A stretch of 64,000 nt of DNA from Burkholderiaceae bacterium (GTDB taxonomy: Bacteria > Pseudomonadota > Gammaproteobacteria > Burkholderiales > Burkholderiaceae_C), in assembly GCA_019745555.1 (NCBI GenBank), contig JAIESX010000001.1, forward strand, positions 310,001 through 374,000, given 5' to 3'. Made by a program: the position numbers and the translations under genes. Shown one piece after another: positions 54,186-57,946 of this stretch; positions within the stretch are counted from its first letter, which is position 1; every line of letters starts with the position of its first letter. Under the pieces are notes generated by a model. The model made no database searches. It had not been told where the DNA came from and saw nothing but the letters and a program-made list of their open reading frames with translations.

Positions 54186-55199
54186 TCAGGCCTTGAGCAG
54201 GCGCGCTGCAGCCACCGCGAAATAGGTCAGCACGCCGTCGGCGCCTGCGCGCTTGAAGCCCAGCAGGCTTTCCATCATCACCGCGTCGTGGTCTAGCCAG
54301 CCGTTCTGTGCCGCGGCCTTGAGCATGGCGTACTCGCCGCTGACCTGGTAGGCGAAGGTGGGCACGCGGAACTCGTCCTTGACGCGACGCACCACGTCCA
54401 GATAGGGCATGCCGGGCTTGACCATCACCATGTCGGCGCCCTCGGCGATGTCCAGGGCGACTTCACGCAGGGCCTCATCGGTGTTGCCCGGGTCCATCTG
54501 GTAGACCTTCTTGTTGCTCTTGCCCAGGTTGGCCGAGGAGCCGACAGCATCGCGGAAGGGGCCGTAGAAGGCGCTTGCGTACTTGGCGCTGTAGGCCATG
54601 ATGCGGGTGTGCACCAGGCGGTTGGCCTCCAGCACGCTGCGGATGGCACCGATGCGGCCGTCCATCATGTCGCTGGGCGCCACGATGTCCACGCCGGCCT
54701 GCGCCTGGGTCAGGGCCTGGCGTTCCAGGATCTCCACCGTCTCGTCGTTGAGGATGTAGCCTGTGTCATCGAGCACACCATCCTGGCCGTGGCTGGTGTA
54801 GGGGTCCAGGGCCACGTCGGTCATGATGCCGAGTTCCGGGAAGCGCTTCTTCAGTTCGCGCACCACGCGCGGCACCAGGCCCTCTGGGTTGTGCGCCTCC
54901 TTGCCGTCGGGCGTCTTGAGCTGGCTGTCGATGACCGGGAACAGGGCCATGACGGGGATGCCAAGTTTGACGCACTCTTCGGCCACGGGCAGCAGCTGGT
55001 CCAGGCTCAGGCGCTCGACGCCCGGCATGGAGGCCACGGCCTCGCGCCGGCTCTGGCCATCCAGGACAAAGACCGGATAGATCAGGTCGTGCACGCCGAG
55101 GGCGTGTTCCCGCACGAGGTTGCGGGTGTAATCGTCTCGGCGCAGCCGGCGCGGCCGGCCCATGGGGTAGGGTGCATAGGGCGTGGAGGGTAGGGACAT
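54186..55199 (-). CDS. hemB: delta-aminolevulinic acid dehydratase (porphobilinogen synthase)
   Basis: A 337-residue HemB, which condenses two 5-aminolevulinate molecules into porphobilinogen in heme synthesis. The N-terminal [18 protein letters not shown] is typical. The active-site lysines are in [14 protein letters not shown] and the Schiff-base region [16 protein letters not shown]. The ATG at 55199 is the first in-frame start, but the predicted domain VI of the adjacent group II intron covers 55183-55220 and contains it. The next in-frame ATG is 55163. The native N-terminus, for instance [10 protein letters not shown], may depend on splicing. Catalytic domain identity is certain; the 5' end is not. 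Confidence 0.95.
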
Positions 55200-55219
55200 A
55201 GTATTACTACTATATCCCC

Positions 55220-55258
55220 CCCTAAAAACCGTGTGTGCGAGTTTCCCCGCGCACGGCT
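55220..55258 (-). ncRNA. group II intron domain V
   Basis: On the minus strand the sequence from AAGCCGTGCGCG through GGGAAAC to CACACACGGTTTT folds as the short hairpin of domain V, with the catalytic AGC triad at its base. It lies 90 nt after the RT stop, the normal position. Confidence 0.85.
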
Positions 55259-55309
55259 TCAACGTAACACCCGGTGGGTCAGTTTCCTGACGTCACCGGC
55301 AGTAACCCG

Positions 55310-57010
55310 TCATACGCGGGCCGGCTTGGTAACCATCACCCCGAGGATGTGGACCTGCCTGTGGCAAACCGTGTGCAGGAGCACCCGGTTTGAGAGTGCA
55401 TTCGTACCACCCAACCCCAGAGGGATGATGTGGTGGTCATGCATGTCACGGTCGTCGATCTCGATGGCTGTGCCGCAATGTGCACACAGCCCGCCTTGAT
55501 CCAGCCAGAGCGAGGCGCGTTGCGTGTCCCAGAGGCTCGCGGCCATCCGGTTCACTCTCAGCTCCTCGCCATACACCTCCCAAGCCGGGTCGTAAGGGTT
55601 GTATTCCTCACGAACCTTCTTGTGGCGGACAATTTTCGTGTCTGCCAGGCGGTATAGCCGGATTGTCAGCTTGTCTCCCGAGCGATCCACGGTGTCGGCG
55701 CTGAATTCAAAGCGACCAGAAGCATCCGTCCAGTAATGACGGAATACCTTGTGCTTGTCCCAGCGCGGGTGACGCCGCAGACCCCACCGCATGAGCCGCC
55801 AGTAAAGGCGGTGGTCCATTTTGGTGAAAGCCTGCTTTGCCACCACACCCTTGTGGTACTCGGCCCAACCGCGAAGCTTGCGGTTCAGGTTCAAGATCAT
55901 GACGTCGGTGTGTAGATGCAGTGATGAGGTCACTTCTTCCTCCAACTTGCGGTAGAACGCCTTAACATTTTTCCGGCTTGGTTTGATGAGCAGTTTCCCT
56001 CCGTATTTACGGAAGTTCCAGCCCAGGAAGTCAAAGCCCTCATCCACATGGACAACTTTCGTTTTGGTCGCGTTCAGAGTGAGGCCCCTATCCGTTAGGA
56101 AGGATGTCACCCATGGCATGACCGTGTCGTTGAGCACCTCGGGAGAGGCGCCCGTAATGACGAAGTCATCGGCATATCGGACGAGATGCACCTTCAGCTT
56201 TCGGGTCTTCGCCACACCGTGCAGAGCCACCAAGTGCTCCTTCAGGCCGCGTTCAAGACCGTCCAACGTCAGGTTAGCCAGCAGAGGGGAGATGACGCCC
56301 CCTTGCGGGGTACCTTTCTCCGTTTTCTGCAGCGCCCAGAGTTGCCGTTTATCCACTACACCAGACCGCAACCACGTTCGTAGCACCCGCTTGTTCATGT
56401 GAACATTGGCGAGTAGCCAGTCGTGATTAATGTTGTCAAAGAACCCTTTAATGTCCGCATCCAATATCCATTGGGCGCCGTTGGCGCCGGACAGAACATT
56501 GAATAGCTGTGACATCGCATCATGCGTCGAGCGCGCTTTCCTGAATCCGTATGAATTCGGGTCCGCGTGACACTCCGCAGCAGGGTCCAGTCCCAAGTGG
56601 AATAGGGCCTGCATTGCGCGATCCAGCATGGTGGGAATACCCAGTGGGCGTTCGTCACCATTCGGTTTTGGGATCCATGCGCGCTTTAGTGGGCGTGCAC
56701 GGTACCCTTGGGTCTTCAACCGCCATATAGCGGTCCATTTACTCTCAGGCGAGTCCCAGAGTTCGCGGTCGATGCCACTCGTCCGCTTTCCCCGGTTTTC
56801 GGTCACTCGTTTAACGGCCAGAGCCCTAGCCTGCCACGAGCGGATAAGACTACGTTGGAGTCGCTTGACCCGTCGATAGTCTCGATCTTTCTCAGCCTGC
56901 GCAATTACTCGCTGCGCCTTTCCCACAAACATCAGGACTTGCCTCCAGTTGATGGAGAACCAGTCCGTCGGCTCGTGCGGAGGCGCAGAGACCTTGCGAT
57001 CATTTTCCAT
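55310..57010 (-). CDS. ltrA: group II intron reverse transcriptase/maturase with HNH endonuclease
   Basis: A 566-residue intron-encoded protein. The reverse transcriptase covers about residues 80-340, with RPLGIPTMLDRAMQ, DADIKGFFDNINHDWLL, GTPQGGVISPLLANL and the catalytic YADD at 279-282. A maturase X domain follows at about 350-430, with GWAEYHKGV. The C-terminal HNH endonuclease at 509-554 has CAHCG, HDHHIIPLGLGG and VCHRQVH. All catalytic residues are intact, so it could be active. The start at 57010 has GGAGGAAGG upstream. GC content is clearly lower than the chromosome, consistent with transfer. Confidence 0.97.
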   Translation of the reverse strand: MENDRKVSAPPHEPTDWFSINWRQVLMFVGKAQRVIAQAEKDRDYRRVKRLQRSLIRSWQARALAVKRVTENRGKRTSGIDRELWDSPESKWTAIWRLKTQGYRARPLKRAWIPKPNGDERPLGIPTMLDRAMQALFHLGLDPAAECHADPNSYGFRKARSTHDAMSQLFNVLSGANGAQWILDADIKGFFDNINHDWLLANVHMNKRVLRTWLRSGVVDKRQLWALQKTEKGTPQGGVISPLLANLTLDGLERGLKEHLVALHGVAKTRKLKVHLVRYADDFVITGASPEVLNDTVMPWVTSFLTDRGLTLNATKTKVVHVDEGFDFLGWNFRKYGGKLLIKPSRKNVKAFYRKLEEEVTSSLHLHTDVMILNLNRKLRGWAEYHKGVVAKQAFTKMDHRLYWRLMRWGLRRHPRWDKHKVFRHYWTDASGRFEFSADTVDRSGDKLTIRLYRLADTKIVRHKKVREEYNPYDPAWEVYGEELRVNRMAASLWDTQRASLWLDQGGLCAHCGTAIEIDDRDMHDHHIIPLGLGGTNALSNRVLLHTVCHRQVHILGVMVTKPARV

Positions 57011-57946
57011 ACCTTCCTCCGATTTAGGAATGAACCCGGAGTGAGGTATGGGCCCGGAGGCTCATACCCTCCGGGTCGTCTTAAGAAGCAACGGTATTAC
57101 GCACGTTACGCCAGCAGCAAGTCAGCTCACTTTCGTGCGGGGGATGGCCCCCTATCTCTCGCATTACACGAGAGCATTTGCTTCCTACTGCATCCTCTAC
57201 CCCCTCCTCCGTGGCCCTTGCGGGTTGCCACCACGAGTGGTGGCGGAGAGTGGGGCTTATCGCCTTACCCAACACGCCCCGCTGACTGGCGGTCAGCAGT
57301 AGGGGTTAGGGACCGTCTATCCTCCTTCGGGCGTTAGAGAAGCGAGTCATGAGCCATGACACATGACCCCAGCCCGAGTGCCTTTTGGCTGTGGCTCTCA
57401 CCCGTGAGGGTGAATGCAGGAGTAAGCCACTCAATTTTCAAGAAGGTTCGAACGACGATTCACATTACATTTCCCGTACCCATTTCTTGGCCAGCCCCGA
57501 TCAGTCCTGTTCAGATCGTGGACGTCTCTTGCGAGGCGTTTTCTGCGCGAGCGCAGGCTGTTTATCCCTAGCTCTCCAAGCACGGATTACTCCATGCCCA
57601 GTAAGGGGCCAAGACACCCCGCTTCCGGGGGTGGTTTCAAGGAAACAAGACGTGTTGAGCTTCTCAGCTCGAACGCATCAACATCCGCCTTCCGCTACGC
57701 GGTAGGCGCAACAAAAATATTTGCTCTCACGAGCATTTTTGTTGTCTTTCAGCAACGAAAGGGCACCCCTGGGAGTGTTCCCATCCGGTTTTCGAGCACG
57801 GCTTGTGGCCGTTTTCGATGCACGTCGAATTCAATTCGATGTGCTCTGTGATGACCCTACAAGGAGGGTTCTCTCGAGGTAAAACGGGTTACGTACGAGA
57901 GTTAGATACGATGGTCACAAGGACCAAATGAGCGGCAGCGCCGCAC
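57011..57946 (-). other. group II intron 5' ribozyme region (domains I-III)
   Basis: About 900 nt with no gene, upstream of the RT on the same strand. It has many local hairpins and a lower GC content than flanking genes, especially at 57660-57880. It must hold ribozyme domains I-III and part of IV. I could not assign individual domains by eye. Confidence 0.6.

Follow-up and report, generated by a model that had tools for sequence, protein, structure and literature searches.

A group II intron between the first two codons of hemB belongs to a lineage that probably homes to promoters

RESULTS

The intron at the start of hemB

The window examined here is a stretch of 64,000 nucleotides from the genome of a Burkholderiaceae bacterium (contig JAIESX010000001.1, positions 310,001 to 374,000). 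Within it the gene encoding HemB (ALAD, porphobilinogen synthase, identified by Pfam and NCBIfam family search), the single hemB match in this genome, is interrupted by a group II intron of 2762 nt that occupies 55185..57946 on the minus strand. The hemB and intron features described below all lie on that strand. The native ATG start codon (57947..57949) forms the end of the 5′ exon, and the 3′ exon (54186..55184) comprises hemB from codon 2. Reading in the direction of the gene, the order is CACAATTTTCCCC-ATG, the intron beginning with GTGCG at 57946, the intron-encoded protein (IEP), domains V and VI (D5 and D6) ending in CTACCCTCC at 55185, and then ACG-CCC-TAT-GCA in the frame of hemB.

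Judged by its defining features, the element is a group II intron. The IEP (566 amino acids; 55310..57010) is a reverse transcriptase, maturase and HNH endonuclease with RVT_N, RVT_1, GIIM and HNH domains. It contains the motif RYADD, and matches TIGR04416 with 354.6 bits where the cut-off is 300. The nearest solved structures are PDB 6me0, 6mec and 8fli (E = 4e-151), described as 'Maturase reverse transcriptase', which we take to be of the Thermosynechococcus TeI4h type. D5 and D6 (55185..55261) match the Rfam covariance model Intron_gpII (RF00029) with 58.4 bits and E = 6.7e-9, and the match reaches the 3′ end at 55185. The same RNA is predicted to fold into two hairpins (z = −8.2). The sole unpaired base in the predicted D6 stem is a bulged A at 55191, the predicted branch point. 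The 5′ end conforms to GUGYG, and two exon-binding sites (EBS1 and EBS2) pair with the corresponding intron-binding sites (IBS1 and IBS2) of the target. Assignment to group IIC fails on the presence of the HNH domain, the six-base length of both EBS1 and EBS2, and the insertion after an ATG. A scan of 57900-58300 found a single terminator-like site, on the plus strand at 58146-58168. A hairpin-like stretch, ACAAAAATATTTGCTCTCACGAGCATTTTTGT, was also noted by eye within the intron, at 57700-57750.

Intron-free hemB loci of the same genus fix both ends of the intron. The uninterrupted genes read CACAATTTTCCCC-ATG-ACA-CCC-TAT (L004) and CACAATTTTCCCC-ATG-ACC-CCT-TAC (L005), and the insertion point is therefore the boundary of the start codon with codon 2 (ATG|ACG). 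When the exons are joined they encode a HemB of 333 amino acids with the N-terminus M-TPYAPYP..., not M-APYP..., and splicing would restore the native reading frame.

An initial annotation, made from the sequence of the window, had placed a group II intron at the start of hemB, with GTGCG at 57946 and a D6 stem that has a bulged A and includes the ATG at 55199. These observations are confirmed. The interpretation built on them is partly supported. It put the 3′ end at a CCAC at 55183, 2 nt from the end given by the empty sites. It also considered joining the ATG before GTGCG to GCACCC. That ATG is indeed the one joined to the hemB frame, but the empty sites rule out this join and a 3′ end at 55183, the junction being ATG|ACG and not ATG|GCA. 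Nor is the ATG in D6 the native start of hemB as had been supposed: where the intron is absent, the gene begins at the ATG that precedes the insertion site.

The intron also occupies this position of hemB in another genome of the genus, G161, and that near-identical copy supports the ends given above. Over 2762 nt the two copies (G000 and G161) share 99.6% identity, whereas the flanks are 81% identical upstream and 87% downstream. Near-identical introns within diverged flanks point to recent transfer or homing. L045 provides a third hemB junction.

A −10-like hexamer precedes the insertion sites

We searched genome contigs for homologues of the intron, retaining the best 80 of at least 570 relatives. 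Matches at E = 1e-150 or better were present in 19 of the 399 genomes of the family that were searched. There were 109 loci with an IEP; nine had no 5′ end within reach and L141 was dropped for a wrong 5′ end, leaving 99 sites. Removal of sites at least 65% identical over 40 nt reduced these to 61. They are still partly dependent, falling into 54 groups once the downstream protein is also used for grouping.

A hexamer TANNNT ends 8-12 nt before the intron at 58 of the 61 distinct sites. In 500 shuffles the mean was 3.58 and the maximum 10, and windows shifted upstream gave 1-2. The proportion changes little before de-replication (93/99) or after grouping by downstream protein (51/54). The exact sequence TATAAT occurs at 17 of the 61 sites (0.05 in shuffles). 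The same hexamer at 8-12 nt was found in none of five introns of other lineages from this bacterial order, picked by eye, and in none of three copies of a farther relative, both being small controls. Four of those five control introns (L172, L174, L177 and L180) read as terminator sites.

The hexamer resembles a −10 box, and its distance from the intron ranges from 9 to 12. The usual gap between a −10 box and the start of transcription is 6-7 nt, which would place these introns at about +3 to +6 of the transcript. The surroundings of the sites are in keeping with such a position. Where the intron does not follow an ATG, an ATG opening a reading frame of at least 120 amino acids lies within 100 nt at 32 of 47 sites, mostly at 13-30 nt (25% for random positions). 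An uninterrupted sense frame spans the site in 27 of 59 cases, compared with 85% for random positions. Some open frame crosses 38 of 53 joined sites, a count that has no control and so was not used. Overall, a link between this intron lineage and promoters is likely, and the insertion site in hemB and the pattern that the sites share are secure.

Three further observations concern these sites. In L082, L086, L134 and L135 a tRNA-Leu (CAG) lies just downstream, the intron being between a TACAAT box and the tRNA gene. L080, L107 and L110 (Arenimonas, a Lysobacteraceae bacterium and Stutzerimonas) lie at or just past stop codons (TAA, TGA, TAATTG) and not at a promoter. At exon position −21 there is a preference for T (0.44 over the 61 sites). 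This is not a known promoter feature, and may reflect contact between the intron protein and the target DNA.

Pairing of the intron RNA with the target

The exon-binding sites were located by aligning the 61 introns over the region preceding the IEP. In the hemB intron EBS1 is CATGGC (57353..57358), at the position that covaries with exon positions −6 to −1. Each EBS1 pairs with its own last six exon bases at 5.48 of 6 positions on average, compared with 2.33 for swapped exons (z = 20.2). EBS2 is GAAAAT (57434..57439), covarying with exon positions −13 to −8 (z = 13.3). At hemB, IBS1 (CCCATG, 57947..57952) makes five of six pairs with EBS1, and IBS2 (ATTTTC, 57953..57958) makes six of six with EBS2.

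The position of EBS2 pairing follows the hexamer. In 57 of 59 introns the paired stretch extends 2-3 nt past the hexamer, and the pairing shifts as the distance from hexamer to insertion site changes (r = 0.77; none of 10000 permutations was as high). The guide is thus tied to the −10 box, its sequence being altered to fit each site.

One clade is inserted directly after start codons

In a tree of 73 IEPs, from which the near copies L049, L127, L128 and L138 were left out, a branch with support of 100/100 separates the 23 elements inserted at start codons, as one clade, from all of the other 50. L033 and L034 fall within this clade. The ATG directly before the intron is seen in 18 of the 23, for which both ends are available; the other five were placed from the 3′ exon only. 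EBS1 in this clade usually begins with CAT, the complement of ATG.

The targets of the clade comprise 12 kinds of gene, named by family search of one member each, and one open reading frame (ORF) without an assigned name (50 amino acids, in L126). The genes are hemB, a ccsB-like gene, amgK, genes for a TPR protein and a PAS protein, yceD, mlaE, an M48 peptidase gene, uvrD, a MoCF-domain gene, an MFS transporter gene and nadC. Cultured carriers of a start-codon intron include Polaromonas sp. OV174 and Hydrogenophaga sp. 2FB. The lineage runs counter to the expectation in the initial annotation that group II introns generally keep out of housekeeping genes. The window genome has two more such introns, in amgK (C57, about 168.5 kb) and in the ccsB-like gene for cytochrome c assembly (C28, where the contig stops short of the 5′ end). 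Comparison with intron-free loci of the genus gives the junctions ATG|ATT for the ccsB-like gene (L143 and L144 against L142 and L145) and ATG|AGC for amgK (L158 and L164 against L157 and L163), so that with hemB exact junctions are available from empty sites at three genes. Separate branches of the clade have struck hemB, the ccsB-like gene and yceD, which suggests that these kinds of gene were invaded repeatedly.

Outside the clade, L118 (Arenimonas, PCuAC gene) and L119 (Stenotrophomonas, RNase T gene) have the intron after ATGA with a −10-like hexamer upstream, possibly a second route to start codons.

The upstream region of hemB

The −10-like hexamer of hemB is CACAAT (57957..57962), 7 nt before the ATG and matching TATAAT at four of six positions. 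In 23 of the 29 intron-free hemB loci compared within the family, [CT]ACAAT or an equivalent with at least four of six matches to TATAAT lies 6-7 nt before the ATG. Only two of those 23 have a Shine-Dalgarno-like tetramer within the last 20 nt before the ATG. Leaderless transcripts of Burkholderia cenocepacia are described as having a TA-rich motif immediately before the start codon (PMC4603805). Given this motif, the position of the hexamer and the scarcity of Shine-Dalgarno sequences, we infer that transcription of hemB starts at or beside the ATG, and hemB appears to be leaderless. The 5′ exon in the transcript would then be little more than AUG, and most of IBS1 and all of IBS2 would lie in DNA that is not transcribed. 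Such an arrangement would suit homing into DNA, and leaves splicing in question.

On the opposite strand, beyond the hemB promoter, there is a match to the anti-hemB small RNA (RF02837, 64.6 bits; 58090..58175, plus strand), whose end at 58146-58168 resembles a terminator. With the 2.8-kb intron in place, this small RNA is now set apart from the hemB coding region.

An ATG within D6

The ATG of the hemB intron at 55197..55199 is located in the 3′ strand of the D6 stem and is in frame with exon 2. An in-frame ATG in D6 is found in 15 of the 22 other start-codon elements, and hence in 16 of the 23, at −15, −18 or −21 from the 3′ end. In the last 30 nt, two of the 23 have an ATG that is out of frame and five have no ATG at all. 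At non-ATG sites whose 3′ end is mapped, an in-frame ATG lies within the last 27 nt in six of 42; the others that bear an ATG mostly have it at −20. The idea of a rule covering the whole clade was rejected on the count of 16/23. Common descent explains part of the pattern, and seven members are without the in-frame ATG. The distribution hints that the D6 ATG may act as a backup start.

DISCUSSION

We propose that these introns are a mobile, IEP-bearing lineage that probably homes to sigma70-type promoters and, in one clade, to leaderless start codons. From the spacing of the hexamer and the pairing of EBS1 and EBS2 the introns appear to home to promoters, and in a leaderless gene an insertion point at about +3 to +6 coincides with the start codon. 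EBS2 would pair with the final bases of the −10 box and those that follow, and EBS1 with the six bases immediately preceding the insertion. The intron would land on the sense strand some 3-6 nt past the expected start of transcription. In the 23-member clade, whose targets look leaderless, an EBS1 that is the complement of the start codon would place the intron right after the ATG. Intron and gene would both be transcribed from the promoter of the gene, and splicing would restore the native mRNA by linking codon 2 to a 5′ exon of very few bases (AUG or slightly more).

Several observations weigh against this proposal. The sites come only from the closest relatives (best 80 of at least 570). 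The three that lack TANNNT include hemB itself, where CACAAT fails the strict motif with a spacing of 10 and four of six matches; the other two, L080 and L110, are just after stop codons. A scan of 57900-58300 for −35/−10 consensus sequences gave no promoter, and a Shine-Dalgarno sequence with a start codon downstream was found at 8 of 47 non-ATG sites, compared with 13% at random. In a farther relative (G246, 49% identity) three copies have TACAAC, which is not TANNNT, and apparently lie in coding sequence, so part of the motif may predate any link with promoters. These copies (L137, L139 and L141, at about 838 of the oriented locus) are near-identical, share CTACAAC...TTC before the intron, and have a TGA inside the matched protein frame. 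The motif could instead be a mere preference of the intron ribonucleoprotein for a DNA target, with T-A at about −16/−15 read by the protein and the remainder by EBS2, and no connection to transcription. In GC-rich genomes such sequences would occur mostly at promoters, and insertions within genes would be lost. The pairing of EBS2 with part of the hexamer, the apparently coding CTACAAC sites of G246 and the preference for T at −21 all fit this explanation, and the pattern as a whole could have arisen in this way. It accounts less readily for a hexamer-to-site distance that varies from 9 to 12 with EBS2 shifting along with it, for L080 and L110, which manage without the motif, and for leaderless start codons being struck as a class. 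We regard a pure DNA preference as a serious possibility, if not the one that we favor.

A further difficulty for the proposal lies in splicing, as a 5′ exon of 3 nt leaves part of IBS1 and no IBS2 in the RNA, and this may be too little. The intron at hemB could therefore remain unspliced, with HemB translated from the D6 ATG as an in-frame replacement start that the intron supplies. In addition to the short 5′ exon, the three distances at which the in-frame ATG occurs in 16 of 23 elements are all multiples of three, and at non-ATG sites an in-frame ATG is found in the last 27 nt in just 6 of 42. Yet it is absent from seven of the 23, including those in nadC and uvrD, and its states cluster by descent on the tree, so that the counts are not independent. 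The ATG is also within a very stable stem, and the G run upstream is farther from it than is usual for a Shine-Dalgarno sequence. Translation from D6 as the sole source of HemB is in our view rather unlikely. The intron might alternatively be a dead relic, hemB being expressed from an internal in-frame ATG at 55163 (MGRPRR), which is also present in L004, or from a cryptic promoter. The intact IEP and the copy that is 99.6% identical in another species, with flanks that differ by 13-19%, argue against a relic, as does the lack of conservation of the internal ATG in many hemB genes, and we consider it improbable. The window is from a draft genome of 57 contigs, so an artefact of assembly should be borne in mind; the same junction in G161 within different flanks, and the third hemB junction in L045, make that exceedingly hard to sustain.

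Comparison with known introns shows where this lineage is distinct. A 2015 review lists three target specificities for bacterial introns, namely homing sites, terminators and attC sites, and promoters are absent from that list (PMC4424553). Among the open-access titles listed in our literature searches, none reports group II introns homing to promoters or start codons. Work by Michel and co-workers in 2007 and by Ferat and co-workers in 2003 reportedly bears on lineage-specific insertion sites. The hemB intron resembles homing-type group IIB introns with an HNH IEP in the domain order of the IEP, D5-D6, GTGCG, the bulged A and EBS1/EBS2. Unlike those introns, its lineage has many targets of differing sequence. 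Common to them is a −10 hexamer at a fixed spacing, to which one clade adds a start codon. Group IIC introns, found after terminators or in attC sites, likewise have specificity for a class of regulatory element and not for one gene (PMC4424553), but the hemB lineage is probably at promoters and not terminators, has long EBS pairing, and possesses HNH. In the known T. intron case insertion also adjoins start codons, but that intron is ORF-less and occupies one repeated site within another intron, not leaderless host genes or promoters. The Azotobacter groEL intron is reportedly in the termination codon; it shares with the hemB intron a position at the edge codon of an essential gene, but this is the stop and not the start. 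We know of no link between that intron and a promoter.

It is possible, and we put it forward tentatively, that the lineage represents a fourth specificity. The intron RNA would guide homing into active promoters, at the melted region where transcription starts. The intron would retain a 5′ exon of only 3-6 nt, take over the promoter and, in the start-codon clade, provide a spare in-frame start in D6, allowing the product of the host gene to be made with or without splicing.

If the homing proposal is correct, promoters and leaderless start codons would join terminators, attC sites and fixed homing sites as targets of group II introns. Such homing would account for the ability of a retroelement to persist in genes like hemB, nadC and uvrD, being transcribed from the host promoter at a cost of almost no exon sequence. 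For RNA splicing it raises the question of the minimum length of a 5′ exon, for which hemB, the ccsB-like gene, amgK and yceD offer natural test cases. The intron might also serve as a natural marker of transcription starts, and its mode of recognition would suggest guides for placing DNA between a promoter and its gene.

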